A stretch of DNA of 64,000 nucleotides from Branchinecta lynchi. Taxonomy: Eukaryota > Arthropoda > Branchiopoda > Anostraca > Branchinectidae. Positions 12,149-34,811 of this stretch are shown in pieces. The stretch spans positions 16,797,998-16,861,997 of the forward strand of contig JAKZAP010000020.1 in NCBI GenBank assembly GCA_023053575.1, read 5' to 3'. Each line of letters opens with the position of its first letter. The stretch's first letter is position 1. Position numbers and translations under genes: made by a program. Below the pieces are notes generated by a model, which was given only the letters and a program-made list of their open reading frames with translations, made no database searches and was not told the origin of the DNA.

Positions 12149-12585
12149 ACAAGAGCTGGAAGCTAATATGGCACTTGCAAGGCTGGGTCAGAGGATGAAA
12201 GTAGGAATTCTTCAGTTCGTGGGTTTGTTGTGGTGGTTTGTAAGCAAAACCCTTGAGATAATGGGTCCTTGGAAATCACAAGAACGTATCGTTTGGTAAT
12301 GCATTTGGCTGTGATCATACACACTTTAGAGGCGCTAGAAATTCGTCTGTAATCAAAACTCTTGAAGCAAAAAATATGATGAGCTCATCGGGAGAATGAA
12401 ATGTATAGTTTACTCAAAAGTATCATTTGTAATTAAGTTTCGCGGTCCTAGCACATCTGGAACTACCTTAACTCGTGATCACCGGAATTCCGGACCCCCC
12501 CCCCCCACCTATCTCCCCCCACAGTGCTCGAATCCGATCCAGTTCTGTCTATTCAAACAATGTTTACAACGGATACGTCAGCTAT

Positions 12586-12645
12586 GATTTTTCATCAGCG
12601 ATATTTCGGCCCTTCTTGGCAAGGGTCCTCGTCAGGCTGTCAATC
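12586..12645 (-). ncRNA. Type I hammerhead ribozyme, left arm of copy 1
   Basis: Reading the minus strand: GATTGACAGC, core CTGACGA, stem II GGACCCTT/AAGGGCC with a GCCAAG loop and a bulged A, core GAAA, TATC, then GCTGATGAAAAATC. Stem I pairs CAGC with GCTG and, after an internal loop, GATT with AATC. Predicted cleavage lies after the C at 12600. Stem III is only A-U over two bases, but ATAT is self-complementary, so a dimer could form a 4-bp stem III. All catalytic core bases are present. Confidence 0.85.
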
Positions 12646-12845
12646 TTCTTGTTCAACTTCGGGGAGGAAACAAACCTGTAATAATCAGATTATTACAGGT
12701 TTGTTTCCTTCCCCGAAGTTTGTTTCCTTCTTGGCAAGGGTCCTCGTCAGGCTGTCAATCTTCTTGTTCAACTTCGGGGAAGGAAACAAACCTGTAATAA
12801 TCAGATTATTACAGGTTTGTTTCCTTCCCCGAAGTTGAACAAGAA

Positions 12846-12905
12846 GATTGACAGCCTGACGAGGACCCTTGCCAAGAAGGGCCGAAATATCGCTGATGAA
12901 AAATC
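12846..12905 (+). ncRNA. Type I hammerhead ribozyme, right arm of copy 1
   Basis: Same 60-nt fold as the left arm on the opposite strand: CTGACGA, stem II with GCCAAG loop, GAAATATC. Predicted cleavage is between 12891 and 12892. Core intact. Confidence 0.85.
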
Positions 12906-14686
12906 ATAGCTGACGTATCCGTTGTAAACATTGTTTGAATAAATGTTTCAAAGTCAGCTTGGGCTCAAAGAATATTTACCAGTTCTGTCACTAATGAATC
13001 TAGGCTTGTGCTTGTTCTTCCCACCAAGTTCCATCCCAATTGCTCCACTCTAAGCGTGTCACAAAATTTACGGCTCCCCCCTCTGACTCCCCCCCCCCCC
13101 CCATACAAATATCGGATCCGGTTCGGACTTCACATAGGACATCCGAGACACGAGGTCTTCGACCTCGAGAAGATCCGACCACCCCTTCCAAAGGTATACG
13201 TTACTATAGATTCCGAATTCCCCTTCCCTCCACTGCCCTCACGGTGGTCGGATGGGAGAAGTGACTATTTCCAAGTTAGTTTGGTTGGGTCCCTGGTATG
13301 CTTGCCAAGTTTCACTGTCCTAACCCACCTGGAAGTAACTTAGCTCCGTATCACCGGAATTCCGGACCCCCCCCCCCCCTCCAAAGTGCACGAATCCCGT
13401 CCGGTTCTGTCAATGATGTACCTAGGGCTTGTGCTTGTTCCTCTCACCAAGTTTCATCCCGATCCCTCCACTCTAAGCGTGTCACATGATTTCCGGTCCC
13501 CCCCCCCCGGCCACCTTCCCCCACCCACAATCGGATTCGGTCCGGACTTGAAATGGACATCTGAGACATGACGTCTTTCCAAATATCTTTCATTAAGATC
13601 CACCCGTTCGAGAGTATGCATGACACTAAATTCCGGATTCCGGCTCCCCTCCCTCCCCCCACGATGTTTGAATCGGGCAAGTGACTATTTCCAACTTATT
13701 TTGGTCGGGTCCCTAATACGCCTGCCAAGTTTCATCATCCTAGCTTATCTGGAAGTACCCTAACTCGTAAAACACCGGACTAACCGACCGACCGACCGAG
13801 AGACAGACCGACGGAAAAGTGATCGGTATATGGCACTTGGCCGTAAGGCAAGTGCCATAAAAACAACTAAAAGAGTCATTTTCAAGTAGTTGAGGAGTTG
13901 GTATGTGTAAATGTATTTAAAGTTTAACTGAACAGGCAACTTATTTTTACATCTTAGATTCAAATACATTGAATTATTACAACACCTATTGGGGATTTTC
14001 ATTCTGTCCACAGTAGTCTTCAGTAAGGACGTTGGGAATGTGGACGCTTTCCCCTGGTGAATCCGTCTACAATTCGCCCGCGAAAATCACTAAACTATCA
14101 CTACACAAGACACCTCACTAGCTAGCACTAGTTTTTGGCACTGCAGACTGCAGACACTTCTTTGTTCATTTAATACACAATTTATTTACTCGTTTGCTGC
14201 TGGTGTTGTTGCCAAATGTTCCAGGCACCATAGAGATATCACAAAAACGGGAAGAGCGGCAAGCACAATGGGATAACCGATTATTTGGAAATATCAGAAA
14301 AACAAACTAACGCTTTTTCATCGGGTTTTCAAGATTATTTAAGCGAACAAGTGATGGGTAACTAGACTGTCGTATCCTAGCCCTTTTCGGTTAAACTTTA
14401 AGCAATAACGTGTGTGGCCCTTTTTTAGGCGGACATGCAGTTTGTTCCAGGAAGCGTATTATTTTCTTGTGTTAATAAATAATCTGAAAATAATCTAGTA
14501 TTTTCAAGAAGTTTTTTTCTGATCCTTTTCATAGTGAAAAGATCATTTCTAGTAAGACTTTAACAGTTATATTTGTTACTGAAAATTTCTTATTTTTCGG
14601 ACGGAAGGGCGGAGAAGCTTCACACATTCTCAGGTATGCGTCATTAACATATTGGGACCCCAAGAAGGGCAGTCAGAACCACGTAC

Positions 14687-14972
14687 CTAAAGTTTCGACA
14701 GTCAGGGTCTGCTCCTCATTAAAGCTTTCCTCCTGTTTCCTCTTAGCCGCTCTCTGTCTTCCAGCGGCTTTAAAAAGCGCCACTCCCAGCAAGACGTTCC
14801 TCAGTTTTGTCCAGAGGACGCTGGCAGTCGTATCCGCTTCGAGAGGCCATTCAGCTTCCAAAACCGTCCGGTGATACACACCGTACGTTACAGCATTTGG
14901 TTGGAATCCCCGTTTCCGAAGCTCAAAGAGCACGCGAACGGCAAGAGCCGGCTGAGCAAACTCGCCACACAG
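14687..14972 (-). CDS. Crag: Crag exon J: PPR repeat ([13 protein letters not shown])
   Basis: 286 nt: 95 codons plus one base. It begins [18 protein letters not shown], continues [25 protein letters not shown] and [17 protein letters not shown], then becomes a Lys/Gln/Glu-rich tail. DENND4 has [43 protein letters not shown] and LWTKxRNVxxGxxxF, so every block is present. Acceptor TTTTTTCAG, donor GTACGT. Conservation fades towards the exon end, where the disordered linker begins. Confidence 0.95.
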
Positions 14973-15118
14973 CTGAAAAAATTGTAAGTTAAGAGCCTAC
15001 TTCCGAATCTGTACACCAGGGACGAATGAAACAAATAGTACAAGCTTTTTTTTTCAACTTCCAAAGAATCTCTGGTCTGAATATAAGGTTTAAAGCCAAG
15101 CTGACCATTCATTACGAA

Positions 15119-15268
15119 AGAAATATAAAACCGTGATTTTCGGGGTTTTTTTTTGCCGGAAGTGCAACCGAAATATCCGAATTTATATTTATCCCTCGCA
15201 CATCATCCTAGAGGGATAATTAGCTGATCAAGAAAAAACCCCGAAAAATCACGGTTTTCTATTTCTTT
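15119..15268. repeat. Short MITE with ~35-bp inverted repeats
   Basis: AAATATAAAACCGTGATTTT CGGGG is mirrored by CCCCGAAAAATCACGGTTTT around about 70 bp. A single-arm fragment recurs at 51758-51800. Confidence 0.7.
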
Positions 15269-15549
15269 AGCTCTGGTCTGATAACTGGTCCTTGCATATC
15301 TTGAACCTGTCTTTAAACCATATCGGTTGGATAGCAGCCAGATTCGTAGCCAGCTAATCCCTGTCCTCGATGCATAGCCACCTGACTCATGGGCTAGATC
15401 CGCAGCCTTCTAATACCTAAGTTAGATCCTAAGATTATACGTACGATTAAAATACAAAAAACTCTGCATAAATCGTAAAAAAATATTATGTAAATTAAGA
15501 AAAATATTATTTACTCGCATTTCAGTGTATTTCTATTAACATTTCCGAT

Positions 15550-16100
15550 GGTAATCAATCAATCACCTTTATTCCAGTAAAAAAATACCATATCACAAAG
15601 AAAACAGGGAAAAAAGAAGAAGACAAAAAAAGAACGAACGCGGCAACAAGTGCAAATATCACATGGACAAGAAAGCAAAAATACCTAACCAGGCTCATAC
15701 AACTTCTGCCAAATTGGCAGAGACAGGCGGAGCCATGGAAAACAAAGCACAAGGATGTATTCATTATCAGATTCAACTAAACGCTGTTTAAGCGAATTTT
15801 TACACGATAGGTGGAGTTGGGAGAAATTGAGTACACGGAACCATCGAAAACCTCAGTCGCGCTTGCTGATCGAGGTATCTTGTGAAGATATCGAAAAATA
15901 TCATTATAAGCCACACGCACCTCACTTATCCCTTGTTTACTGTAGGAGCAAACCAACGAAAGACCAAAAATACTCGTACAGTATGAACGGAAAAAGGAAA
16001 GTTTTCACTTCTGAAGAGCAAAAAGAAAACTTTCTAAGGAGTAGGTTACCACGTGCATACACTGACCTCAGAGTATGCCTAATATGTAGAGTATGCCTAA
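15550..16100 (-). mobile_element. LINE 3' end, Rex1-like family C
   Basis: In minus orientation this is the C-terminal ORF2 and 3' UTR region of the element at 20031-21103, with a (TGATT)n tail (AATCAATCAATCACC on the plus strand). The ORF is broken. The plus-strand open frame at 15755-16108 is its antisense shadow. Confidence 0.65.
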
Positions 16101-16160
16101 TAGGCTAAAGGACAACTCTTGGTTTATTCAAACAATGTTTACAACGGATACATCAGCTAT

Positions 16161-16220
16161 GATTCTTCATCAGCGATATTTCGGCCCTTCTTGGCAAGGG
16201 TCCTCGTCAGGCTGTCGATC
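16161..16220 (-). ncRNA. Type I hammerhead ribozyme, left arm of copy 2
   Basis: Core CTGACGA ... GAAATATC intact, stem I CAGC/GCTG. The outer stem I pair is GATC against AATC, one mismatch. Cleavage after the C at 16175. Confidence 0.83.
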
Positions 16221-16330
16221 CTCTGGTTCAACTCCGGGGAAGGAAACAAACCTGTAATAATGCCAAGAAGGGCCGAAATATCGCTGAAGATTATTACAGG
16301 TTTGTTTCTTTCCCCGAAGCTGAACCAGAG

Positions 16331-16390
16331 GATCGACAGCCTGACGAGGACCCTTGCCAAGAAGGGCCGAAATATTGCTGATGAAGAATC
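16331..16390 (+). ncRNA. Type I hammerhead ribozyme, right arm of copy 2
   Basis: As the left arm but with GAAATATT, so the cleavage nucleotide is U (16376). U is permitted at position 17 (H = A, C or U). Confidence 0.82.
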
Positions 16391-17149
16391 ATAGCTGACG
16401 TATCCGTTGTAAACATTGTTTGAATAAATGTTTCAAAGTCAGCTTGGGCTCAAAGAATATTTAACTCTTGGTTATTCTATATTATGCTCAACTCCCTTAT
16501 GGAATGATAAGCTTCCAAAATCCCCCTTTTCCTCAACGTTTCATTTTTTACCTACAGCTTTTTTGCGCTTTTTCGAGCTATACCAGTCATGCACAACAAA
16601 ATTCATCAAAGCCTCAAAGTCAACCGACTGCTTTTCCACACATACGGATATGAGAAGGTTCGAAGTATTGTTTCTCATCTTGGAAGACGTAGTAGAGCAT
16701 CACGCATATCTTCTGTCGTTGACTTCTTCTGTTTTGCTTGATTTTTCATTTTTAACCACGGCGCATTCAGTTTTCAAACATCTTGCGTCCAGCCGCCGCG
16801 TCGAAGAGAGTGAAGGCTGGATAGAATCGACAAGCGCTAACTAGAAAATCACTAATTTCACGTGGAAGGTGATGGCATTTTCGGGAAACGATATCTCTTG
16901 AGACATTTCATCGTGGAAAGATCGTTTCTAGTAAAAGTTGTGCTGTAACGAAGAATATTGGAAAAATAAAGTGAATTAAAAAAATAATCAGGCATCGGAA
17001 AACTGCTGAGACTCTCATTCCACTGAAAGCAAGCAAAGGCAAACGTAACGAGGAATTTCACAGGTAATTCGGGCTCTCATGCAGTCAAAGTTAATGTTCG
17101 CATAACTATGATACATTAATTGTTTAGTATAAATTTATATTTAGTATAG

Positions 17150-17342
17150 TATAACTAAACTTTACTCTTCTCTAGTTTGACTCTTCTCAAGACGCCATCT
17201 GCATTACAGTGCGTTTGTATAGTCATTTCGTTCAGTTTCGTCGGATCATTTTCTTTCCTTTATTGTTTTTCATATACTCCGTACGCGGCACGTTCTGTGC
17301 CATTTTTACATGGATTAATAAAATTATTGATTGATTGATAGC
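17150..17342 (+). mobile_element. LINE 3' end with (ATTG)n tail
   Basis: A non-coding sequence ends GGATTAATAAAATTATTGAT TGATTGATAG. The polyA-like signal followed by tetramers resembles other LINE ends in this window. Confidence 0.5.
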
Positions 17343-17447
17343 AAATTACTCAACTTGATATGAAAAAAAAAAAAAAAAAAAAACATAACGAAGGGAAAAG
17401 TCGGGGCAGGTTGCGGGGTAGCAGCGATAAGAGGCTAAGATCCGTAC

Positions 17448-17592
17448 CTGAATCATAACTCGGTAGCAAGTTTCATCAGGTGGATTTGACTTGAGCGCAG
17501 AGAGCCTCTGTAGTACGGCAAAGCCTTTTCGCAAGGTGCTATTCGGCGACTTCGACTGCGTTACGTACGCTGGCAGTTGAGCAAACCATAAG
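17448..17592 (-). CDS. Crag: Crag exon I: PPR-like helices (LWFAQLPAYV)
   Basis: 145 nt: one base, then 48 codons ending in phase 0. It encodes LWFAQLPAYVTQSKSP, RKGFAVLQRLSALKSN and PPDETCYRVMIQ. DENND4 proteins have YSLWFICLPAYVRVSHPK, a helix, then DxxDEVCYRVVMQLCG, so this is the first PPR-like repeat. Acceptor ATTTCTAG, donor GTACGG. A plus-strand poly-A run (17360-17382) in the upstream intron is read as T-rich sequence in the transcript. Confidence 0.94.
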
Positions 17593-17733
17593 CTAGAAAT
17601 GAGAATAAAATACAATAATAAACAAATCAACACAATCACAGCACCCGCTTAACTCCAAGCAATTTGTAGGAAAGAAATTCACAAAATCACATATTTAAGA
17701 AAGAATCTTTCATTTTAGTTCATTTTCAAGACT

Positions 17734-17776
17734 GAGCCTCAAGAGACCCTTGTCAAGAAGGGCCGAAATATAGCTC
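17734..17776 (+). ncRNA. Decayed hammerhead (subfamily 2)
   Basis: GAGC, CTCAAGA, stem II with GTCAAG loop, GAAATATA, GCTC. The invariant G of CUGANGA is now C, so it should be inactive. The arm continues to about 17860 (GTCAGCTTGGGCTGAAGG). Confidence 0.65.
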
Positions 17777-18141
17777 TAATAAAATATAGTTGACGTATAC
17801 GTTTTAATTTGTCAAATATGATTCGTAGTCAGCTTGGGCTGAAGGAATATCCATCACCGAAGTACAGAACTTCAAATCGCCCAGGCATGCCGACGACAAG
17901 TATCCATCTTAGCTGTAAAGAAGAAGAGACATGTGACTCCAAAACGAAAATGCAGACAGATCTCAACGCTTTCAACGACCCAGCCCAGCAGCCAAAACAG
18001 CAGCCGTGTCCAAAATGAAATCGCAGCACCAGCTTTAACTCCAAGCAATTTTCAGGGAAGAAATTCACAAAATCAGTTATTTAAGAAAGAATCTTTGATT
18101 GTTTTTTTTCCACAAGTTCATTTTCCAGCTTGAGTGGCTTG

Positions 18142-18184
18142 AGCACGAAGAGGACAATTGCCAGAAGGGCCGAAATATAGCTCT
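18142..18184 (+). ncRNA. Decayed hammerhead (subfamily 2)
   Basis: GAGC/GCTC stem I and GAAATATA remain, but the first core box reads ACGAAGA and stem II is changed (GGACAATT). Inactive by the usual rules. Confidence 0.6.
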
Positions 18185-18240
18185 GATAAAATGTAGCTGA
18201 CGTATTCGTTTTGCATTGTCAAAAAATCAATATAATCATA

Positions 18241-18587
18241 AGCCGCGTTCGATTCATCTACGGTTATCCGACTATATTATCCCGAAATTGTCTTTAGTCG
18301 TTTTATTCACGAATAATGACGTCATTCTCAACGCAAATTTCCATTTACGTAGTGTGAATTGAACGACAACAGACGAAAGATTTTCATCATCGCTAGAATT
18401 TCGACGGAGATCATAGAACGAAAAAAAAACTTCCGTCGGGAATTTCGGATATTATCCGACGGATTCGTAGAACTACGACTACACTTTTAAATAAAACAAC
18501 AAAAGCTCTACGCCGTAGTTGAATAAAATGGCATCTAGGGCTGGTCGTCGACAATAATAGAAAACTGTTGATGAATCGAACGCGGCT
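18241..18587. mobile_element. MITE with perfect 18-bp terminal inverted repeats
   Basis: AGCCGCGTTCGATTCATC at the left is exactly inverted as GATGAATCGAACGCGGCT at the right. ATA flanks both sides, possibly a 3-bp duplication. No ORF. Confidence 0.75.
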
Positions 18588-19468
18588 ATATACACGAATG
18601 TTGCTTTGTATTTGGAGTACAGCCGGGTTACAGGTTGACCTGAAATGAACAGCTAGAAGTCCATCAAACACACAAGGTTATATAGACGCTTTGTAGTCAA
18701 TTATTCTCCCGTAGCAAAGTCTCGCGAGTTCAAACACGGAGTCAGTGCGACCGTGGAATCATCTAGTGGAGCAATTAGGAAACACGCTTATAGGCATGCT
18801 TAAGACTGATCTTGGCAAGAAAATCAGAGAAAATGAAAAAAGTGTCGCTATGGAGGTTGCAAAAAGTAAAAAAAAAAAAAAAAAAAAGAGCAAAATATTT
18901 GGACAGCGAGCTAAACACAGCCCCAACAGCCCAAAAAACTTGTAAAGCTTATGACCTTCTTATTGCACTGAATTATATGTTTTGTAGAAGCATTCTAGGT
19001 AAAGTGTATAATGCGTTTGTTATTCACCGCATCCTTGCATTAGCACCGTTTTGGTATATTATTATATTTACTGAGTCAGATGTTAAAGCATTATGAAAGT
19101 GTTTCTATAAGTCTGCGAAATATCTGCTGAGACGCCTTGCTCAAGTAATAGCAGCGTATCAAGGAAGTATGGAGTAGCTCATCCCGTAATTGCTGTGCAG
19201 AAGCGTTAACTGCGGTATAGTCAAGACTCCGACCCAACAAGTTATGTATACAGATTACTGAAAAAGTCGAAGATAATTTGTTGTAGTTACGTTTCGTTTC
19301 CCCTTATTTTTCCTACTCCATTTAGTGTACTTGTATGTTATGATGGGTAATAAAGTGATAATAATACAAAAGTATAAACTTTTGGAGGGTTTTTTAGTTC
19401 CTAGTATTTTTTTCCAATAAACCACATATATAATCTAACAAAGCGAAAAGCCGGAAAAAATCGATTAC

Positions 19469-19575
19469 CTGAAACATGTCGCTAGGATATGGTGTGCCGA
19501 TAGCATCGGGGTATCCGAATGCTTCTTAGCAGCATTACCGAGTATCCGAAGCTCCTGTTGTGTCCTTTTCGAAAG
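19469..19575 (-). pseudogene. Decayed partial duplicate of Crag exon H
   Basis: The minus strand repeats the 3' half of exon H (21268-~21374), including its donor (CAG|GTAATCG). The translated piece is still open and reads LSKRTQQELRILGNAAKK then HSDTPMLSAHHILATCF. Against exon H it has Arg>Asn, Ile>Thr, Trp>Ser and Arg>His changes, so it has drifted at conserved positions. It has no matching acceptor because similarity stops near 19575. It lies 1.7 kb downstream of the real exon inside the same intron. Confidence 0.8.
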
Positions 19576-20030
19576 CGGTAGTGGTGATTACTGTTTTCGT
19601 TTTCCCTATTTTGTGTACTAATAATAAAAATAATAATAATGCAAAGAAAGCGAAAAGCCAGACAAAATCGATTACCTAAAACATCTCGCTTTTCCCTTAT
19701 TTTTCCTACTCTATTTTGTGTACTTGTACATTATAATGGGTAATAAATTAATAAAACTAATAATAATGCAAACAAAGCGAAAAGTCAGACAAAATCGATT
19801 ACCTAAAACATACTGCTTTTCCCTTATTTTTCCGACTCCATTTTGTGTACTTGTACGTTATAAGGGGTAGTAAAATAATAAAAATAATAATAATGCAAAC
19901 AAAGCGAAAAGCCAGACAAAATCGATTACCTAAAACATGTCGCTTTTTCCTTATTTTTCCCTACTCCATTTTGTGTACTTGTACGTTATAATGGGTAATA
20001 AAATACTAAAAATAATAATAATTCAATTCA

Positions 20031-21103
20031 ATTCAATTCAATACATTTTATTCCGGTAACTAAGACCATAATTTGAGAACACACATAACGACACTAATAA
20101 AATGAAAAACAAAACAAAACCAAGACCATATTACCCTCTATCAATAGGCTCATATAACTGTTTCCATACTGGAAGTGAAAGCCGTAGGAGCGAAGTACTC
20201 AATTGACAAATAAGGGTATTGTCGCTTGCAAGAAGCCGTTTTCTCAGAGACTCACGACACAGCCAATGCAGCTCATAAAAATTCGGGACATTATGATCAG
20301 AAAACACTTCACTAGCACTTGTAAAACGAGGGAGTTTATGAAGAAATCGAAAAATATCATTGTACGCAATACGCAGCTCGCTTATTCCTTTCTTCGTAAA
20401 AGAACAAACAAGAGAGAGACCAAAAATACTTGTACAATACGACCGAAAAAGAAACGTCTTAACGTCGGGAGTACAATGGTGGAAATTCCGCAACAGCATA
20501 TTTCCACGTGTATAAACCGATTTCAACGAATGACGAATGTGGGTATCATCAACAAGATGCTCATTAAACACAAACCCGAGGTATCGAAATTGTGAAACAA
20601 ATGAAAGCACACTACCATTCAGAAGAATAGGCGGAATAAACGGGGCGACAGAACCCTTAGGCCTAAAACCAACACATTCAGTTTTTGCTGAGTTAAAAAT
20701 GATATCATTTTCATCTGCAAACGATTGGCAAATTCGCAGTAATTTATTCAGGGCATTAGGGCATGTTGCTAGCAAAACTAGATCATCGGCATAACTAATA
20801 TTATTTATGCAACAACACCCGACGTGGCAACCAATGCCACTAGCACTTAAACGTTTGTTTAGATCGTCGCAATAAACCGTAAACAAAAACGCGGAAAGCA
20901 CGCCCCCTTGCCGTACTCCGTTAATAACAGAGAAAGGGGAACTTAGCTCAGACCCCCATCGTACCAAAAATCGCTGGTGCTGGAACCAATACGCAAGAAC
21001 ACGCAGGTAAGGTAGAGGAACACATCTTTTTCGAAGGATTAGAAGGAGCTTTCGCTGATTCACTCGATCAAATGCTTTCTTAACATCCACGAAGCAAGCA
21101 ATA
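20031..21103 (-). mobile_element. 5'-truncated LINE with reverse transcriptase, family C
   Basis: A minus-strand open frame of 319 codons (20131-21090) runs from MDVKKAFDRV through NGVRQGGVLSAFLFTVYCDD and the catalytic SYADDLVLLA to a long C-terminal region. These are RT motifs of CR1/Rex1-like non-LTR elements. The 3' end (lower coordinates) finishes in (ATTGA)n, seen as AATTCAATTCAATTCAATT. The insertion splits one 127-bp unit of the exon-end array, and AATAAT flanks both sides. EN and the N-terminal RT are missing, so it is dead on arrival. Confidence 0.85.
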
Positions 21104-21267
21104 ATGCAAACAAAGCGAAAAGCCAGACAAAATCGATTACCTAAAACATGTCGCTTTTCTCTTATTTTTCCTACTCTATTTTGTGTACTTGTACGTTATA
21201 ATGGGTAATAAAATAATAAAAATAATAATAATGCAAACAAAGCGAAAAGCCAGACAAAATCGATTAC

Positions 21268-21479: not shown

Positions 21480-21512
21480 CTGGAAAGGAGAAACATAAAC
21501 ACAGTTTTTTAA

Positions 21513-22440: not shown

Positions 22441-22449
22441 CAATGCAGC

Positions 22450-23060
22450 TGGAACTGAAAGTATACAGACGCTTTCACATTGACGCGCTATACCGATGCA
22501 CTGCGCTTATCTTGCGCTGCGTACAGGTAGCGTCGCGTATCTTCCACACCTGCGCGACAAGCTTTCACGCTGGATGTGTATTTAAGTAATAAACATGTTT
22601 CAGGTTTGTTTCCTTCCCCGATGCTGACCCAGAAGATTGACAGCCTGACGAGGACCCTTGCCAAGAAGGGCCGAAATATCGCTGATGAAGAATCGTAGCT
22701 AACGTATCCGGTGTAAACACTGTTTGAATACATGTTTCAAAGTCAGCTTGGGATCATGTATTTACGTTTTCCTTTCCCGGTATCTTATGCGAGTTCTCGT
22801 TTATTACATCATTACTAAGTTTTTCTTCATCCTTAATATAGGGTTTTCTCCAGTTTGTCTTTAAAAACTTCAATTTTTCACTGAAAAATCCGATGCGTAT
22901 GCGTCGAGGCAACACAAAAATAGAACTTGGTTCTAATCTTGCGTTGCGTGTATTCTTGCGTTGCGTTTTATTTGTCTACGTAAGCTCTGCGTTGCGTCAC
23001 CGCAAGCGCGACGCAGAGGTTGCGTAGCTTAGTGTTAAAGCCTCAAAGCGTCAGTTTGAA
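22450..23060. repeat. GCGTTGCG-rich repeat, probably a MITE, with a nested hammerhead arm
   Basis: CAGACGCTTTCACATTGACG near the left and CGACGCAGAGG...AAAGCCTCAAAGCGTC near the right are roughly inverted, with GCGCTGCGT/GCGTTGCGT pieces in both halves. The hammerhead arm at about 22585-22752 interrupts it. Confidence 0.4.
22635..22694 (+). ncRNA. Type I hammerhead ribozyme in a solo arm
   Basis: GATTGACAGC, CTGACGA, stem II with GCCAAG loop, GAAATATC, GCTGATGAAGAATC. All core bases and both stem I segments are intact. Cleavage between 22680 and 22681. Only one arm is present here, flanked by TGTATTTA-like repeats at about 22577 and 22757. Confidence 0.85.
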
Positions 23061-25328: not shown

Positions 25329-25444
25329 CTAAGAAACAAAGAATTTTAAAGATTCTACAGCGGACAGTTTACTACCAACTCTATTCCTATGGAGTGATTA
25401 CAACTACTAGGACAATAACAGCCTTGAACTTCAGGCAGAGCTGG

Positions 25445-25605: not shown

Positions 25606-25649
25606 CTCGCAGCAGTTCTGACTTCAAGGCTCCATCTCCAAAATCGACG

Positions 25650-26110: not shown

Positions 26111-26325
26111 TCCGGCCTCTCCGGACATCTAGCGGAAGAAAGGCAGAAGCGGTGTCACACCTGCTGCCAAAGATCGCAGTGATAGATTGACACAGGATTT
26201 GAGTCGTTGAGTTTAAGTCGCACATACACGCTTACTCCTTCTTCCTGAGGATCGCTGGCGTGTTTTGAAGTATTAGAACCCAGGCGTACGATGGGGGCAG
26301 GAGGCAATGCCGTCTTTACCCTTAA

Positions 26326-26772
26326 AGCAGAACTTTTACTAGAAATGATCGTTTCACAATGAAATGGATCAGAAAAACTTTTTTCGAAAATACCATTACT
26401 TTCCAGCTGAATTTAGCAATTTTCTTGTTAGCACCTGTCGACTCTCTCCAGCATTCCTGCTCTCTGACGCGGCGGCTGGATGCAAAACATTTGAAAACTG
26501 AACGCGCCGTGGTTAAAAAGACAGGCAACTAAGCAAATAAAAAAAAGTAAAACACAGAAGATTCTCATATCCTTATACGTGAAAGAGTTGTCAGTGGACG
26601 CTGAAGATTCCTACAACTTTACGTTGTTTGACAGGCAAAATTTGGTAATGCCGAAAAAGAGCTAAAAAATCGTACTCACGATACGAAACAATGGAGAAAA
26701 ACAGGGATTTGAAAAGCTTATAATTTTATAAGGGAGCTAGGTATATTACAAAAGGCTGAATAAGCAAGAGAA
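26326..26772 (-). mobile_element. Family K repeat, inverted copy
   Basis: AGCAGAACTTTTACTAG after TTAA, with the core GACGCGGCGGCTGG, is the reverse complement of 5204-5655. TTAA also lies at 26773-26776. Confidence 0.65.
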
Positions 26773-26808
26773 TTAACTAAACGCACGTCCTTCTGATAAC
26801 CGTCATAA

Positions 26809-27222
26809 GGCGTATTCTCGCCGTTCCCCCAGGACTCCTCGGGGAATCGAAGGGAACGGCGAGAATAGAGGGAGTCACTCCACGCGGACTCCCCGTACAG
26901 AAACAGCGAGAACACAGGGAATGCTTCCAAAATGGATTTTGTTTGAAAAAAAAATATGCAGTTGACGAAATTAGTCTAGATCCACTTTATTTTTGGTTTT
27001 GTTTATTCTAATTGTTTTTAATTAATTTTACATTGCACCAACACAAGCAAAAAATTGATTCCCCTCCGAATCTCAAAGGGAGTCCTTTTTGATGATGGTG
27101 ATGATAGTCGGAGCATTCCCCGTCCGTGGGGACTCGCGAGAATACGGGGAGTGAGTCCCCGGGACAAACAAAAACGCGGGGAATCCTCAAGTGGAGTCCT
27201 CGGGGAACGGCGAGAATACGCC
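26809..27222. mobile_element. MITE with ~20-bp GGCGTATTCTCGCCGTTCCCC ends, family H
   Basis: Left GGCGTATTCTCGCCGTTCCC is mirrored by right GGGGAACGGCGAGAATACGC. Internal sub-palindromes also contain GGGAACGGCGAGAATA. Copies are at 33682-34094 and, decayed, 46085-46493. Confidence 0.75.
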
Positions 27223-27678
27223 TATACAACTTCACCCGGTTTGGTGGGGAAAACGCGGGCAGTTATCGGCCACTTCCGTAAGCTCAATGGAGCCGCAGAA
27301 CAAGGGTCCAAATGAGCGTCCTTGTTCTTCCGTTGAAGTTCACCGTTTGCTTAATTAGTGTTTTTACAACTCCGGCGACCTTGCCCGGTCGACGTTTCTT
27401 CGACGCAAACTTCGAACTTGCTAGCTGACGAAGTTCGACGTCGAGAGTATGAACGACAGAAACCGTGACCGGCGACCAAAAACGGTAGTTAAACAAAGAC
27501 CTTTGAGGTTGAAGATAACTTCAAACTTAGATAAAAAAAACGCAACTAATGTAAATAAATATAAAGCTAAAACAAGGCTGTTCGCCTCTTACTTCACTAG
27601 AAACTAACAACACGTCTTGTGACCAAATGCGACGACCTACTCTTTCTGGCCTGGGTACCAGAAATATAACTAACTTAA

Positions 27679-29013
27679 AGGACCTGTCTTACCTACAATA
27701 CTAACGCAAACTAATTCCATAATCTCTCCATATATTTCTAAGCCCAGAGACCCCAATTTCGTACGGTACATTCTAACCCCTCTAACAGAAGCACGCTGAT
27801 TTTTCAGAAAAACGCTTATGTAAATTGTTTCCCTGTTTTTGCTATAAGTCAACGGGTCTCGGTAACCTGTGGGTGCAAGTCAATTTTCCCAGTGTATGAT
27901 TGCCAGTTTTCTCTCAGACCGGAGCCAAGTTGTTAAACTGAATGGTTCCGTCTCCGCAGTTGAAACAATAACTTGCGGTACCCCCCAAAGTACTAAGTTG
28001 GGTCCTCTGATTTTTCTTTGTTCTGTAAATAATGTTGCTAAAGATTTCCTTCATAGGTACAAATTTGCAGATGATCTCTCACTTCTCGTTATTTCTAAGC
28101 TTTCTTTCACACTTCCGAACAGTTCAAATCCGGTACAAGACTCCATCACTTCCCTTAAAACTCAACTGTTAAGCAAGAAAATGCAGATTAATGACAGTAA
28201 GTCTTCGGTTATGCGGTTTAGCAGACTAAGAAGAGAAACTGCTGAATATCCATCGTCATTCAGGCAGCTTGAATCCGTTAAATTGCTTGGGGTAATAATT
28301 GATGATGATCTGAAATGGTATTCTCATGTTGACAATATTATAACTTTTTAATTAAATCCCTTTCTACCCTTAAATCTTTCGGTTTGGATACTAAATTCCT
28401 CCTCTGTTATTTTAAAACTTATATCCGTCCTAATTTAGAATATGCTTCACCGGTTTGGCATTCTTCTCTTTCTGCAGAGCTCTCTGATCGCCTGGAAAAT
28501 GTCCAAAAGAGAGCCATGAGAATCATTCTGGGTGATCATAACATTACATACGAAGAGGCTCTCACTAAACTTGCCATTCCTAAATTATCTGTACGTAGAA
28601 ATACTCTTTCAAACAAATTTGGAGCTAAGATAACGTATTGTCCCCAGATGACCCATCTATTCCCCCCTCCCCTCCCGTCTTCCGTGCGTCGGTCCGAGAG
28701 GAATACTGGCAATAAGTTTTCCCCATATCCCGCTAATTCTTCTACCCAATTTTTACGTAGTTTCATTCCATCATTTATTTCTGGTAATTTCTTGTAAGTG
28801 TATTAGTTAAATTGTTTCTTGTGTGTCTGTGTATTTTGTAAATTTGTATTGCTTTTCTAGCTTTTAGCTATTCGGATTAAACTTGATCGATTGATTGTAA
28901 AAGCTTAAAACAGCCCAAACCATGGGTTATTTGGTGAAACCAGAGCCTAGATTTAAGGTATTCAAATATTTCAAAATACTTTAAGTTGAAGAGTAATTAG
29001 TGCGAGGGGTCCT
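27679..29013 (+). mobile_element. TTAA-flanked MITE, family J, split by a LINE
   Basis: TTAA (27675-27678), AGGACCTGTC start; ends GCGAGGGGTCCT, TTAA (29014-29017). Compared with the uninterrupted copy at 53864-54232, the sequence breaks after GGGTCTCG at 27861 and resumes at 28898. Confidence 0.8.
27862..28897 (+). mobile_element. L2/CR1-like LINE fragment, family D
   Basis: A 5'-truncated ORF2 in two frames. 27869-28351 encodes RT remains (CGTPQSTKLGPLIF, FADDLSLLV in place of YxDD, LLGVIIDDDLKW). 28384-28797 encodes the C-terminal part (YIRPNLEYASPVWHSSL, RAMRIILG). The two join only across a frame break near 28350. The 3' end is TTAGCTATTCGGATTAAACT TGATCGATTGATTG. Confidence 0.8.
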
Positions 29014-29164
29014 TTAAGCTGCCTGAGAAGTTTTAAAAATATTTTGTATAGATAAGGCTTCTTTTAATCCGTAGACCGTCTCCCGCGGGACGGTCACTCG
29101 GTTCCCAAATAACAAGTTTATATAAGAGCAATTTTAAAACGACGGCACTCGCCTGCTTATGTTT

Positions 29165-29365
29165 TTGATAGCGCAAACCGTATACATCAGCTGAACTTTA
29201 TTGGAGCAATATTTCGGCCCCCTCTTCAGGCTCAAAATCGCTCAAGTAAGAAAGACGAACTTGTGGGAAAAAATCTAGTATAAATAACTCCAATAAAATT
29301 CAACTGACGTCTCCGTTTTGCAATATCAAATATGATTCGCAGTCAGCTTGGGCTCAAGTATTATT
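29165..29365 (-). mobile_element. Hammerhead arm, subfamily 2, with stem II deleted
   Basis: The minus strand keeps TTTTGAGC, CTGAAGA, GAAATATT and GCTC, but stem II has shrunk to GGGGGCC, with the CCCTTGCCAAGAA hairpin lost (29201-29236). A second arm piece ends GTCAGCTTGGGCTCAAG at 29342-29358. Confidence 0.65.
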
Positions 29366-29569
29366 TTTCTGTTTACGTTTATTGAACGCAGCAAAGTTCT
29401 CAGTTGGAATGTTACCGTCGACGCCGCGACGTAACCTGTATACCCTGACCAGACATTGAAGGTAGAAAACTTTTTTCGAATTATATTTTTTGGCGATTAT
29501 TATTACTAACATTAATACAGTTCGAGCGGCAACCCTGCCCATCTGAGATCCACCCGGTTATAAACTTAC

Positions 29570-29714
29570 TTATCACAGACTTCATCGAAAAATGCAAGAC
29601 TAGAATCCATGTCGGACACGAAACTTCGCTCCTCAATGAACCGACTGAAAATCTGGGTTTTGACTAGATAACTGTAGAATTTGACACAGGACTTGTCCCG
29701 CGACCGAAGAAAAC
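29570..29714 (-). CDS. Crag: Crag exon F: end of dDENN
   Basis: 145 nt: two bases complete Gly, then 47 codons and two bases. It encodes [34 protein letters not shown] and [11 protein letters not shown]. Family equivalents are FLKSRDRxxxKFY, KTQIFxRFIEExSFVSD and LAFFDxCxEK, giving a near-complete match to the dDENN end. Acceptor TTTTCAG, donor GTAAGT. It is followed downstream (lower coordinates) by a LINE-split MITE at 27679-29013. Confidence 0.95.
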
Positions 29715-29814
29715 CTGAAAACAAAAGAGTCATCTTCAAACGCTTGGAAATACGACACGGGCTGTTGTGTACAGTACAAATTTTGTATTTCTTGTGATTC
29801 GCAGAAAGCATTAG

Positions 29815-30105
29815 TTGCGTTTTTGCAGATACCATGGTATCTGATACCACGGTCTAAAGTCGTTTTCGCAGTTACCGTGGTATCCATACCACGGTCAAAA
29901 GGCGTCAAAAGGTTAGCACTCAGTGATGTAACTGGATATCAGGTTTTTGTTTTTTTTTGGGGGGGGATGACTTCGGAAAGTGCAATTTCGGCAATAGTCG
30001 TTTTTCCAGAGCGACCGTGTATCAGATACCACGGTACCTAGAAAAACGACTAACTACAGATTCATTTACCGTGGTAACAGATACTATGGTATCTGCAAAA
30101 ACACA
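29815..30105. repeat. Family I repeat: ACCGTGGTATCTGATACCACGGT palindromes
   Basis: Half-sites of CCGTGGTATC occur several times in both orientations, separated by TCGTTTTCGCAG and TGCAAAAAC-type spacers. Related copies are at 24836-25025 and 59905-60265. Confidence 0.65.
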
Positions 30106-30284
30106 ACTATTAATACACGTACTCGCCGTCTTGGCTCACAGTTGTCATGTCGAGCTCGGTTGACAAGTCAGTATAATCCATTTCAGTTTGTCTGTACACT
30201 GTCAGAAGTTTCATACAGGTAACACAAGGATGCGCAGTTTCAACAGACAACACTTGGGATGTAATCTGTTGTGATTTTTAATAC

Positions 30285-30965
30285 GTTAAAGTTCAATGGG
30301 CGGATCAAACAATCATGATACCACATTACCACCCCCTAGAAGACAATGTTATATCAGAAACCAGCAAATTCTTCGACAACTTATTTTCGCTAATATATCG
30401 TTACGCAGTTTTTATCTGACTGCCATACTCCGATTTACTGACTTTAACAAGTATAAGTGGAGTTTCTTTTTTCTTCTCTATTCGTTGTAATTATATACTC
30501 CGAATTTGTATTACTGACTAATACTCATATAAACGGTCTTAACCGAGAATTCCTTGTAAGTTCTGGAATCAGCTGCAAGTAGGTCGGTTTTATTTGTACA
30601 TTTGCGGTGTTATAACTTTGCATCCAGAAAGCAAAACTTTTCTTCTGTACTAGACAAGAGAAAGTTTCATCAGATAATATAACACTGGAGCAATCTGCCA
30701 GCTACGGAGGCGGTTTGTTTTAGCAGCCATGGCACCCTCATCACTCAGCTCTAGAAAATGATTGATTTTCGTACATGGCCAAGAGGTTTTGAATTTCCGC
30801 GCCTTGCTATGCCATTCTCTGAAATCGTCTCTGAGGAGACGACGAAGAGTCAATGACAAGCGATAACAAGAAAACGGCTTATTTTTGAAGCGCTATCTAG
30901 TCGAAGTCAGAAATTTGTATGTGTGAAGCATTTTATAAAATTAAAGCATAGTTAGTGTCCACTGT
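30285..30965 (+). repeat. Family M repeat, best uninterrupted copy
   Basis: Runs from ATGGGCGGATCAAACAATCA to AAAGCATAGTTAGTGTCC with no ORF. Split copies at 23849-25105 and 56050-57570 show its extent. Superfamily not recognised. Confidence 0.65.
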
Positions 30966-31029
30966 GCTTAAGCATCAGATGCTCTGCATAACAAGTTGCA
31001 TAACGCACACCAGGTTTTTCTGATTCACG

Positions 31030-31200
31030 AAATCAAATATTTAATAGTAAGCGAGAACCTTCAGTTTGTGTTTCCCACAAGTTCGTTTTTCCAACTTGAG
31101 CGGCTTTGAGCCTGAAGAGGACCCTTGCCAAGAAGGGCCGAAATATAGCTCAAATAAAAGTCAGCTGACGTATCCGTTTTGCACTATCAAATACAACATG
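31030..31200 (+). mobile_element. Hammerhead arm, subfamily 2
   Basis: Begins near TTCCCACAAGTTCG and ends TATCCGTTTTGCACTATCAA, the arm shared with 33435-33665. It contains the intact ribozyme at 31105-31154. Confidence 0.75.
31105..31154 (+). ncRNA. Type I hammerhead ribozyme, subfamily 2
   Basis: TTTGAGC pairs with GCTCAAA (7-bp stem I). Core CTGAAGA, stem II GGACCCTT/AAGGGCC with GCCAAG loop, GAAATATA. Predicted cleavage after A at 31147. Compared with subfamily 1 both sides of stem I changed together (CAGC/GCTG to GAGC/GCTC). Confidence 0.85.
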
Positions 31201-31310
31201 TTTACAGGATCTAGCAAGACAGGAAATCTACAAGACCCGATTGACTGGATCAAGAAGTCCAATAAATACAGCTTTTTAGGACCCCGTCAAACCTTTGGTC
31301 TTCTTCCTAT
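31200..31310 (-). mobile_element. Family B 5'-end fragment
   Basis: Contains the reverse of GATCCAGTCAATCGGGTC and the CAAACCTTTGGTCTTC end, matching 62650-62745 and 38830-38935. Confidence 0.55.
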
Positions 31311-31427
31311 AGTGTTTCTCCATATCGCGTTGTAGTTTAGCTTGACCTATCTTCCCCTTCTAGGCCAGCAAATCCCCTGTTACCGTATTTGTAGTATCTA
31401 TACAAAAAAATCAAACTTGATCTATAC

Positions 31428-31569
31428 CTTCCATGTCAAACAGTGACCTCGAGTCCGTGGCTCCTATGTCCGGTGCTCTGGTGAGTGGCAGTAAAAAATT
31501 CCTATAACTCGTTAGCAGGCTTCCCATGAATCTCAAAAAAGCTTCCTGGATTTCCAACTCCGTCGTCAG
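31428..31569 (-). CDS. Crag: Crag exon E: dDENN helix (IQEAFLRFM)
   Basis: 142 nt: 47 codons plus one base. It encodes [34 protein letters not shown] and SRSLFDMEG. The family block is [25 protein letters not shown] followed by SLFDxxGF, which matches across the whole exon and into the next one. dDENN helps hold cDENN in the exchange-competent fold. Acceptor CGTTTACAG. The donor GTATAG is weaker than others in the gene but is the only one that keeps both frame and family match. Confidence 0.93.
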
Positions 31570-31649
31570 CTGTAAACGAAGAACAAGAATAAAGTTTGAA
31601 TTGGCTACATCCAGAAAGTATCGCAGGAATTGGGGCACTCATAATCAGC

Positions 31650-31750
31650 GTTGGGAAGTACTTCGAGTTATCCTGAAGTACAAAGTAGAGGTACTTGGGT
31701 TTTACTAAGTACAAATTTCCTGGAGTACTTAATACATAGTACTTGTTACA
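31650..31750. repeat. AAGTACTT-rich inverted repeat
   Basis: GAAGTACTTCGAGTTATCC, GAAGTACAAAGTAG, GGAGTACTTAATACATAGTA: repeated AAGTACTT half-sites in both orientations just upstream of exon E. Confidence 0.5.
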
Positions 31751-32214
31751 ACCCATGCCCAACGAAAACGAACCCGAGTCAATAGGCCTACTGCCAGTGC
31801 TGGCAATTAAGAAGCCAGCTTTTACCCGAAGGTACAGAAGCCGACTTATTTCAGTCGTAAAAATTTAAAATCTTCAAGAACTCATTTCTGATTAAACTTT
31901 GCTCCAATACTGTGAATAAATAATCAAAAAAAGGGTCAGAAAAATAATAAAAAAAGGTTCATCATAAAAAGGTTTACAACAACTTACAGATTCAGAATTG
32001 TTACCAAATGCCGAACGATTCAGAGTCGTTCATTTAATTGTGTTGACATAGCCTATTATTTATTTTATTTATTTAATTCAGCCGTAGATATATACACAGA
32101 GGCCTAAAAATCGCGCATAACCACATATGTATAAAAAAAAATCAACGACAAGTTCATCGCTCCATTTTTTTCCAACAAAACTGGAGCGGTAAGATTTTGG
32201 ATCAGGTTGTTATC

Positions 32215-32790
32215 TCACCTCAAAAGGCGGCATTTTAGCGATGAAACTGCTTTACGTTTCAGTTCGTAAAACGAAGATGTACGATTATTGGCGAACATCC
32301 CCGAGGCGCTACACCGGTGTGGGAGTCGGTGAAGTTTTCTGTAGCAGTTATTGTAAGTGACGAGGGTCACATTTATCGCACCAGCAGTGAAATTTGTACA
32401 AAGAGCGAAACAGTAAAACTGAAAACAAAAAGTACGAAACAGCCTATCACGGATAATCGCAGAACAAAACTGAAATTTTCTGGCAGCTACATTTCCTCGC
32501 ACACACAGACTTTTTGTTAAATGACGCAAATGAGTAAGATCCCGCAGATCAGGCGTAAACCAGAAGCCAAGGTATTTAAACTCTGCAACAAATTTCAGGC
32601 GTGATGAACACAGCAGCACAGGAGGGACTATTTCGATTTTCAACTCTGGTGGTATAGCCAAGCATTCGGTTTTTTTGTGTTAAAAACAATATCTCTCTCC
32701 AGTGCAAATTTCTCACACACTCGAAGTAGTATACTGTCCAGCACTGTTTTTTTAGTAAAAGATAGCATGGATCAATAGACCGAGTTGTAA
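32215..32790 (-). mobile_element. LINE fragment, family C (C-terminal ORF2)
   Basis: The minus frame reads FVAEFKYLGFWFTPDLRD, LTHLRHLTKSLCVRGNVAAR and LHRLPHRCSASGMFANN, parallel to FRYLGFVFNEHLVDDTHIRH and LHKLPRFTSASEVFSDHN of the 20031-21103 element. Upstream part frameshifted. Confidence 0.75.
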
Positions 32791-33079
32791 CTGTAATAAC
32801 TGTAAACATTTCTCCAAAATCTTATATATGTATCACAATGTATAGTTATTCTGTTTAGATGATGGTGTAGAAATATCCATTTTCGTCAAATTCAAAGTTC
32901 AAGTTTTTTAATTTTATACAAAAATACAAATACATATACAAGCACTGTGGAGAACAAAAATTCGAACATGCAGTGCTTGTTAAAAATGTTACTTTAATAA
33001 CAACACCTACGTACCCTATAAATCTAACAAAAATAATATAAGGTAAGCTGAAAACTATGAGCGTGATCCACCCTCCTAA

Positions 33080-33340
33080 CAATAGTAGCCTAACTGTTAG
33101 TTATTATTTTCGTCACAACCTTGTGAAAAGTTACTAGGTTCTAGCCTTCTCGAAATATTGACCAATAGTAACTATTTGCTAACCACGCACGGGAGCGTAG
33201 TAAACGTGGTAACTACGATCTCAGTGACGTGATTGGCCCGATCAGCCTCAGCTCAGGAAATGGACGCAAAAAGCCAGGGTTCGTGACGGCATGCCAAGTA
33301 ACTACGGTAAAAAGGGTGGAACACGATGTCACCTGGTTGA
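33080..33340. repeat. Family L repeat
   Basis: GTTAGTTATTATTTTCGTCA, TAGTAACTATTTGCTAACCA and GGGTGGAACACG resemble 22300-22440. Possible MITE. Confidence 0.4.
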
Positions 33341-33434
33341 GTTCAATTTAGTGTACATAGTGTCTAGAGAAATTTATACAGGCGACAGTCTTTTTTGCTG
33401 CAGTTATGTTATTATATAATTATTATTGATATTC

Positions 33435-33665
33435 CTTCAGCCCAAGCTGACTGTGAATCATATTCGACAATGCAAAATGGATACGTCAGCTACATTTTAT
33501 TAGAACTATATTTTCGCCCTTCTTGGCAAGGGTCCTCTTCAGGCTCAAAACCGCTCAAGTTGGAAAAACGAACTTGTGGAAAGGAAGGACCCTTGCCAAG
33601 AAGGGCCGACATATAGCTCTAATATAATATATTTGACGTATCCGTTTTGCATTGTCAAATATTCG
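33435..33665. mobile_element. Hammerhead foldback element, subfamily 2, partly decayed
   Basis: Left arm starts CAGCCCAAGCTGACTG; right arm ends GTATCCGTTTTGCATTGTCA. The minus-strand ribozyme (33511-33550) keeps TTTTGAGC, CTGAAGA and stem II but reads GGGCGAAAATATAGTTC, with one stem II base lost and an extra A. The plus-strand partner has lost CUGANGA and reads GACATATA. Confidence 0.7.
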
Positions 33666-33681
33666 TATTAATATTACTATA

Positions 33682-34094
33682 GGTGTATTCTCGCCGTTCC
33701 CCAAGGACTCCTCGTGGACTCGAAGGGAACGGCGAGAATAGAGGGAGTCACTCCACGAGGACTCCGCCTAGGAAAACAACGAGAACACAGGGAATGCTTC
33801 TAAAATGGATTTAGTTTGAAAAAAAAAATATGCAGTTGACGAAACTGGTCTGGATCCACTTTATTTTTGGTTTTGTTTATTCTGATTATTTTTAATTAAT
33901 CTTACATTGCACCAACACCAACAAAAATTCATTCTCCTCCGAATCTGAAAGGGAGTCCTTTTTGATGATGGTGATGATAATCGGAGCATTCCCCGTCTGT
34001 GGGGACTCGCGAGAATACGGGAGTGAATCCCCGGAACAAACGAAAACGCAGGGACTCCGCAAGTGGAGTCCTCGGGGAACGGCGAGAATACGCC
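33682..34094. mobile_element. Family H MITE beside exon D
   Basis: GGTGTATTCTCGCCGTTCCC and GGGGAACGGCGAGAATACGC form the ends. It closely matches 26809-27222 and stops 24 bp from the exon D donor. Confidence 0.75.
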
Positions 34095-34117
34095 TTATGT
34101 ATTAAAACATGACGTAC

Positions 34118-34295
34118 CTCTTTCTTCCTTCTTGTGAAATCCGAATCAAGTGCAACGTCTTCGGGCAGAGGGGTGTAGTTGTAACTCCATCCGGCTTCAT
34201 ATATTCTCTTTCCGATATCTCCAAGGGTGTGCCTTAATTGTCGCGTAACCCTCTTTGGAAGAAGCTTTGACGCGTTGTACTTTTTCTCGTCACAC
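34118..34295 (-). CDS. Crag: Crag exon D: cDENN/dDENN junction
   Basis: 178 nt: one base completes Met, followed by 59 codons in phase 0. It reads CDEKKYNASKLLPKRVTRQL, later TPLPEDVALDSDF and ends RRKKE. DENND4 proteins have xDEKKxxxxKxLPKKPxxxL and, before the next exon, TPxExDFxxxKK, so order and spacing fit. Acceptor CTCTCAG, donor GTACGT. A 413-bp MITE (33682-34094) ends 24 bp from the exon boundary, just inside the following intron. Confidence 0.92.
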
Positions 34296-34465
34296 CTGAG
34301 AGACAAAACATATTAAAATGGATCCCGTAATGTTTCACACACTGTGAATGTAGCTTAGAGAATAGAGAGGTCACTTTAACCATAAGCTGCATTAAATATT
34401 CTTTGAGCCCAAGCTGACTTTGAAACATTTATTCAAACAATGTTTACAACGGATAAGTCAGCTAT

Positions 34466-34525
34466 GATTCTTCATCAGCGATATTTCGGCCCTTCTTGGC
34501 AAGGGTCCTCGTCAGGCTGTCAATC
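34466..34525 (-). ncRNA. Type I hammerhead ribozyme, left arm of copy 3
   Basis: Minus strand: GATTGACAGC, CTGACGA, stem II with GCCAAG loop, GAAATATC, GCTGATGAAGAATC. Complete core. Cleavage after the C at 34480. Confidence 0.86.
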
Positions 34526-34689
34526 CTCTGGTTCAACTTCGGAGAAGGAAACAAACCTGTAATCAAATTGCTGTAATCATTTGCTGTAGATAACCCTACG
34601 CTAACCCGATTTTTTACTTTTCAATTTATTCTTCCATTTATTCTAGCTGGTATTACAGGTTTGTTTCCTTCCCCGAAGTTGAACCAGAG

Positions 34690-34749
34690 GATTGACAGCC
34701 TGACGAGGACGCTTGCCAAGAAGGGCCGAAATATCGCTGATGAAGAATC
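34690..34749 (+). ncRNA. Type I hammerhead ribozyme, right arm of copy 3 (stem II mismatch)
   Basis: Core intact, but stem II reads GGACGCTT instead of GGACCCTT (G at 34711), leaving one unpaired position. Activity may be lower. Confidence 0.8.
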
Positions 34750-34811
34750 ATAGTTGACGTATCCGTTGTAAACATTGTTTGAATAAATAAGCTGCATTCC
34801 CAAGCAATACG

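Follow-up and report, generated by a model that had tools for sequence, protein, structure and literature searches.

We analyzed a 64,000-nucleotide (nt) stretch of the genome of the anostracan Branchinecta lynchi (contig JAKZAP010000020.1, positions 16,797,998 to 16,861,997; hereafter, the window), in which seven copies of one 60-nt block are present, six of them in three foldbacks. As read directly in the window, the blocks carry the core, a hairpin, a CAGC/GCUG stem I and a distal GAUU/AAUC pairing, at the positions and on the strands given by an initial annotation of this DNA. The type I hammerhead core is intact in six of the seven blocks, with helix III nearly absent. The arms of the three foldbacks (121, 139, and 137 nt; 98, 96, and 97% complementary, respectively) point outward, bearing out the annotated arrangement of two outward-pointing ribozymes per element. 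These foldbacks are very probably head-to-head pairs of pseudo-long terminal repeats (pLTRs) of a Penelope-like element (PLE) family resident in the genome, inserted as units. Their features, and those of related copies, are listed below (ORF, open reading frame; TSD, target-site duplication; + and -, strand).

12550..12978: foldback 1, read as a head-to-head PLE pLTR pair; left arm tailless, right arm tailed
12690-12800: centre of foldback 1, with two additional partial arm copies
12539..12549 (left) and 12979-12989 (right): TSD of foldback 1, CCAGTTCTGTC
12586..12649, -: left-arm hammerhead block of foldback 1
12842..12905, +: right-arm hammerhead block of foldback 1; predicted cleavage at 12891/12892
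12943..12978, +: tail of foldback 1, matching the first 12 codons of the PLE ORF (MFQSQLGLKEYL)
16123..16463: foldback 2; left arm tailless, right arm tailed; partial arm at 16261-16290 in the centre
16115..16122 (left) and 16464-16471 (right): TSD of foldback 2, ACTCTTGG
16161..16224, -: left-arm hammerhead block of foldback 2
16327..16390, +: right-arm hammerhead block of foldback 2, with U at the cleavage position
22598..22756, +: single pLTR copy with an intact hammerhead at 22631-22694
34393..34787: foldback 3; left arm tailed, right arm tailless; 77-nt unrelated centre
34383..34392 (left) and 34788-34797 (right): TSD of foldback 3, TAAGCTGCAT
34466..34529, -: left-arm hammerhead block of foldback 3
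34686..34749, +: right-arm hammerhead block of foldback 3; a C>G change disrupts stem II
48752..49117: older, degraded head-to-head pair
52778..53029: older, degraded head-to-head pair

The TSDs had not been annotated before, nor had the more diverged copies at 17754, 18161, 29164-29369, 31129, 33425-33662, 48752-49117, and 52778-53029, four of which are foldbacks.

With up to three mismatches, CAAGAAGGGCCGAAATAT occurs 15 times in the window, versus 0.04 occurrences expected from shuffles. Similarly, a hammerhead descriptor (stem I, CUGANGA, stem II, GAAA, UH, stem I), evaluated against 100 dinucleotide shuffles, matched seven places in the window versus a mean of 0.03 per shuffle; the matches comprise six of the known blocks and a diverged copy at 31112, and block 34690 (+), in which the C>G change disrupts stem II, fails the descriptor. 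The minimum-energy fold of 22631-22694 is exactly the hammerhead pairing, with a stem II of seven pairs, a bulged A and a 6-nt loop, and with AUAU as helix III. Both the type I order and the very short helix III that had been annotated were thus recovered. As judged from its sequence, the AUAU helix would pair best between two copies. Passages of two reviews (PMC6155905, PMC7761336) describe minimal PLE hammerheads without helix III. The exact ribozyme core was absent from the viral contigs that we searched.

The seven 60-nt blocks belong to family A; the window also holds copies of a second family, B.

17639..18223, +: family B tandem of two direct pLTR copies, period 407; degraded cores
29164..29369: older family B foldback; right arm begins near the cleavage site
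31023..31193, +: single family B copy; hammerhead intact, with CUGAAGA, a stem I of UUUGAGC/GCUCAAA and A at the cleavage position
33425..33662: family B foldback; left arm tailed

An ORF-like stretch (MIRSQLGLKEYPSPKYRTS...) sits between the two pLTRs of the tandem at 17639-18223. The best family-B copy (31112, +) reads UUUGAGC, CUGAAGA, the same stem II as family A, GAAAUAUA, and GCUCAAA; in the predicted fold of 31098-31161, stem II forms and the 5' strand of stem I pairs elsewhere. Between the consensuses of families A and B, 34 of the 35 block positions are identical, the sole change being at N7; identity is 27/41 upstream (in a forced alignment), 7/14 over the 3' side of stem I and its loop, and 44/54 over the tail and ORF start. 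A second block, GTAGCTGACGTATCCGTT, is identical at 18/18 positions. It lies (e.g., at 12907-12923, +) between the ribozyme and the start sites of reverse transcription, could form a stem with GTCAGCT of the tail, and is possibly a protein-binding site. Across 18 sequences of both families, 89.2% of the pairing cells are paired, versus 84.4% in shuffles, and 10 cells show a two-sided change, a value above all 500 shuffles. At the outer pair of stem I, eight sequences have C-G, six have G-C and one has G-U, and three are unpaired; stem II showed zero double changes in the same 18 sequences. Within this alignment, support from covariation is weak for stem I and absent for stem II; the hammerhead case rests on the intact core, the location of the changes and the cleavage-site footprint described below.

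A search of the genome (576 Mb) with a tail-plus-extension sequence, in which the best 40 of 546 candidates were scored, revealed two loci (L078 and L079) that both hold an 863-aa open ORF. At both loci, the exact core CTGACGAGGACCCTTGCCAAGAAGGGCCGAAATATCGCTG lies upstream of the ORF and is repeated behind it, with an inverted partial unit at the far side. Each composite carries one tail and is flanked by a TSD (TCTAATAAAATG and CTTCCACTCT, respectively), and the first lies in a family-B pLTR. The tail, which is the beginning of the PLE ORF, codes for M(F/S)QSQLGLKEYL. The 863-aa product has 30 homologs that are 25-37% identical across the aligned part, and their precomputed domains are PF28514 (30 homologs), PF00078 (RVT_1; 24), PF26215 (24), and PF01541 (GIY-YIG; 2); when three relatives were scanned directly against Pfam, RVT_1 and GIY-YIG matched in all three. 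In an alignment of 16 rows, D403, M469-G470, D505-D506, Y710, Y720, G722, R731, and E789 are invariant; we take these reverse transcriptase (RT) and GIY-YIG residues to be the catalytic positions. A sequence search of PDB with the PLE ORF gave no match. A single ORF with RT and GIY-YIG, direct as well as inverted pLTRs, a TSD, and a tail on one inverted pLTR were all found; judged by its residues, homologs and layout, the ORF-bearing element is a PLE. The link to Penelope elements made in the initial annotation is therefore upheld, the identical core flanking an ORF with conserved RT and GIY-YIG residues, and its suggestion of a new element type gives way to paired pLTRs of a PLE with an open ORF in the same genome. 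Foldback layout and minimal hammerhead are already known for PLEs, and what we describe is one more PLE family.

The foldbacks behave as insertion units. We tested 21 head-to-head pairs for shared ends, of which one (L024) had no left boundary. Of the remaining 20 pairs, 13 have an end sequence of at least 7 nt in common, versus a fraction of 0.0079 (~3) of 380 crossed combinations; L023 and L039 resemble copies of one insertion, and the count without L039 is 12/19. The TSDs measure ~8-13 bp. The retro-insertion previously proposed is supported. Relative to the cleavage site, 22 family-A arms have their 3' end at +52/53 and 39 at +86 to +88, and 31 further arms extend to the end of the query at +129, inside the ORF. 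There are thus two fixed 3' ends ~35 nt apart, without and with the tail. We counted tails in 45 same-family head-to-head pairs, leaving out L039: exactly one arm is tailed in all seven window pairs and in 24 of the 25 pairs at other loci with determinable ends, and 13 more have an arm that continues into the ORF. The lone exception, L019, is truncated at the end of its locus, and the extended stretch has one tail, with AAAGCTTATC at both flanks. Because the queries used to find the genome loci contain much or all of the tail, tailless pairs would be under-represented among those loci; the window pairs are unaffected. Foldback DNA transposons carry symmetric terminal inverted repeats at both outer ends; here, the ~35-nt tail is present at one outer end only. 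Of 30 pairs of neighbouring arms separated by less than 450 nt, 21 have a head-to-head and 7 a direct arrangement. At L013, L016, and L078/L081, foldbacks or an entire PLE are inserted in or beside family-B pLTRs, which suggests that insertions may prefer pLTR targets. At L014 (1336-2136), a foldback with far longer arms is joined at a TTTCCGGAAA palindrome, its 5' end lying further upstream.

Both arms begin at the predicted cleavage phosphate in L036 (family B) and in L019 and L072 (family A), the latter two joints containing a few additional bases. In a first sample of paired arms, 5 of 31 arms starting outside the main position lay within 2 nt of the cleavage site; as this was only suggestive, a joint pattern was run genome-wide. 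The family-A pattern matched 73 palindromic places versus 1 for the reversed pattern. Fifty of the 73 places were listed, and removal of 5 overlapping longer matches and 5 near-identical neighbours left 40 places. Among the matches listed, the 80 arm starts at these places fall at 0 (35 arms), -1 (5), +1 (5), and +2 (7), with 14 at +3, the edge of the pattern, and 14 at -3 to -25. Fourteen places were inspected, including all ten with both arms at 0, and the other 26 were counted from the pattern alone. At five of the ten double-zero places (L083 and L087-L090), a distinct TSD of 10-13 nt is present; L092 and L093 have a TSD in common and were counted as one insertion. One of the two arms is tailed in L083, L087-L090, and L092/L093. 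In a refined set, which drops L093, L094, and three places with AGC at the centre (two inspected, the third judged from the pattern only), 30 of 70 arm starts among the matches listed lie at 0, 3 at -1, 5 at +1, 7 at +2, and 11 at +3. The 57 arms that start at -12 to +2 exclude a uniform spread (binomial p ~1e-20, although arms from the same place are not independent of each other). The simplest cause of this peak would be a real RNA 5' end, since a structural stop is expected before stem I is copied rather than after it. As far as genomic sequence can speak to it, the peak suggests that the ribozyme truly cuts the element RNA in the organism. We think it likely that the joints record cleavage in vivo, with the cleaved RNA (5' GCUGAUG...) serving as template and two run-off cDNAs being fused across a 2-nt GC overlap. 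Arm starts form a further cluster at the loop of stem II (-31 to -20; 11 of 31 non-main starts, e.g., window positions 33586 and 48862, and L016, L031, L045, and L071), and these joints possibly arose by template switching at the hairpin.

Several observations weigh against this reading of a cleaved PLE. In the monomer, helix III consists of two A-U pairs and lacks a loop, and an A is bulged out of stem II; monomer cleavage may therefore be slow. No Rfam hammerhead family matched, either in the whole window at the gathering threshold or in three pieces at E<=10, a check that the initial annotation had itself called for; the sole match of the whole window at the gathering threshold is one tRNA, and microRNA matches below the Rfam threshold merely mirror the near-perfect hairpin. 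Two pairs of the fold changed on both sides (the outer stem I pair, C-G/G-C, and one distal stem I pair), which equals the shuffle mean of 2.0. The 863-aa ORF itself has no Pfam match, even at E<=10. Seven of the 20 pairs lack shared ends of 7 nt. Among the double-zero places, L084 and L085 have no TSD, L086 and L091 continue into the ORF, and L094 is not a clean foldback; nor are L095 and L096, which have one arm at 0, and the tail pattern found no tail on either arm of L084. In the first sample, 48 of 90 paired arms start at -95 to -78, and uncleaved templates are therefore common too. According to PMC11167929, insertion of the Anolis PLE in vitro had no need for cleavage, and no reads ending at the site were found. 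Finally, the two arms of one foldback differ in 13 of 95 comparisons of subfamily-diagnostic sites, compared with 500 of 1,235 for crossed arms (14 pairs). This difference indicates that arms come mostly from one RNA or source copy, which is compatible with two-sided priming or self-priming; two independent RNAs would explain it no better than a single template or self-priming does. Overall identity differs little (93.5% for own versus 91.4% for crossed arms, two pairs being badly aligned).

As to mechanism, excerpts of PMC11167929 describe a PLE protein that cuts and extends both strands, with internal starts of reverse transcription at two adjacent sites and the tail between them. Here, the PLE protein would cut both target strands ~10 nt apart, and reverse transcription would start inside the RNA at two adjacent sites, one per target strand. 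Both cDNAs would then run to the 5' end of the template, which would be either uncleaved, ~85 nt upstream, or left by hammerhead cleavage, and would be joined there to give the inverted pair. The one-tail rule is what a separate start site for each target strand would produce, and on balance we favor two-sided priming as the way in which the arms were joined. Self-cleavage of the foldbacks themselves is improbable, because the hairpin sequesters their ribozymes: in predicted folds of the three foldback RNAs, the other arm pairs with 34-35 of the 35 block positions, and forcing the ribozyme to form would cost about 78-80 kcal/mol of predicted energy. With one sense and one antisense copy per transcript, processing of the foldbacks by self-cleavage, as first annotated, is not sustained. 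Cleavage would more likely act on tandem parental PLE RNA than on foldback RNA. An inserted foldback would yield only hairpin RNA, in which the ribozyme would be hard to fold; it probably represents a dead end and may serve as a source of double-stranded RNA.

The second arm could instead have arisen by self-priming, the 3' end of the first cDNA folding back, or being copied at a palindrome, and synthesis halting before a tail that protein or RNA still covers. The agreement of own arms at diagnostic sites and the palindromes found at joints speak for this, and sections of PMC3846280 on rotifer Penelope elements, which describe inverted pLTRs with a TSD, one optional tail and palindromic joints, propose it. 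A looped hairpin primer, however, is not expected to leave joints with GC-only overlaps, in which both arms end at one run-off end and there is no loop; moreover, the position of the tailless end is fixed and matches the second of the start sites used by the PLE enzyme of Anolis, which cuts and extends both strands (PMC11167929). We regard self-priming as possible but doubtful. It is far harder to see in these elements metazoan retrozymes, i.e., small non-autonomous circular-RNA elements with type I hammerheads that are mobilised by PLEs. Direct tandems do exist, with periods of 224 bp at L047, where three hammerheads are present, and 407 bp in the window, but neighbouring pairs are mostly inverted, the repeats include the start of the PLE ORF, and an ORF-bearing parent is present. 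Retrozymes are defined, in the relevant passages of PMC7229834, by small direct tandem repeats and circular RNA, and the foldbacks are inverted; the retrozyme explanation is thus unlikely. The array at L047 (1563-2028) consists of three near-identical hammerhead units in direct tandem, with a period of 224 bp, and resembles a retrozyme array.

Two further explanations fare worse. A new non-autonomous class that moves as a foldback and is excised by its own two ribozymes would account for several foldbacks sharing layout, TSDs, and intact cores. Yet the centres vary among elements, ORF-bearing PLE insertions have identical ends, the sense ribozyme is sequestered by the other arm, and one sense copy per transcript leaves no dimer, making such a class very improbable. 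Least credible of all is that the block is conserved as a coding sequence for a short, stop-terminated peptide and not as a ribozyme. In family A, as in the family-B consensus, the block can be read through in an open frame, but the ORF of the element starts downstream of the block, and in the best family-B copy (31129) a one-base shift, seen by eye, breaks the frame with the hammerhead left intact. In addition, the sole core change between the family consensuses falls at N7, and arm starts peak at the cleavage phosphate.

Elsewhere in the window, other remnants of RT ORFs (RVT_1) lie at 20131-21195 (-), 27866-28351 (+), and 43774-45447 (+). The nine best relatives of the 557-aa ORF among these are 43-48% identical to it, except at lower coverage, and one named relative, from Artemia, is 44% identical. 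The tRNA gene match lies at 41468-41539 (+; 57.2 bits, Rfam).

Minimal, dimer-type hammerheads of PLEs are said to have been described by Cervera and de la Pena in 2014 and by Lunse et al. in 2017. As reported at second hand in sections of PMC6155905 and PMC7761336, these share with the present ribozyme the type I order, an intact core and scarcely any helix III; the present ribozyme has a 7-pair stem II with a bulged A and a 6-nt loop, and AUAU as helix III. The PLE family described here resembles the rotifer element Pen2a_Av, for which PMC3846280 gives one ORF with RT and GIY-YIG (842 aa, versus 863 aa here). As in PLEs covered by parts of PMC3846280 and PMC11167929, its pLTRs are direct and inverted head-to-head, the hammerhead lies near the pLTR-ORF border, and an optional tail of 30-40 nt occurs at the ORF start. 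The TSDs of the rotifer cases in those parts of PMC3846280 are 8-10 bp, versus ~8-13 bp here, and the ATG of L078 follows the cleavage site by 50 nt, whereas in PAc from Anolis (PMC11167929) that site is 26 bp inside the ORF. Like the metazoan retrozymes of PMC7229834, the elements have type I hammerheads in small repeats, some of them tandem; unlike them, they have an inverted layout, include the PLE ORF start, and have an ORF-bearing parent in the genome.

In contrast to Pen2a_Av and PAc, ORF-less pLTR pairs are frequent here, with many joints exactly at the cleavage site. A literature search returned no report of PLE insertion joints peaking at the hammerhead site; key hammerhead-PLE papers lay outside its coverage, and absence from print is thus not shown. 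Within the literature searched, the strict one-tail rule, here in a larger sample, and the cleavage-site peak are new. The one-tail rule sets a quantitative limit on models of PLE insertion at the two target strands. A passage of PMC7761336 calls the role of the hammerhead kept by PLEs a mystery. If our interpretation of the joints is true, the PLE ribozyme gains an observable place in the transposition cycle, and the joint peak would let PLE-rich genomes be read for ribozyme cleavage in vivo.

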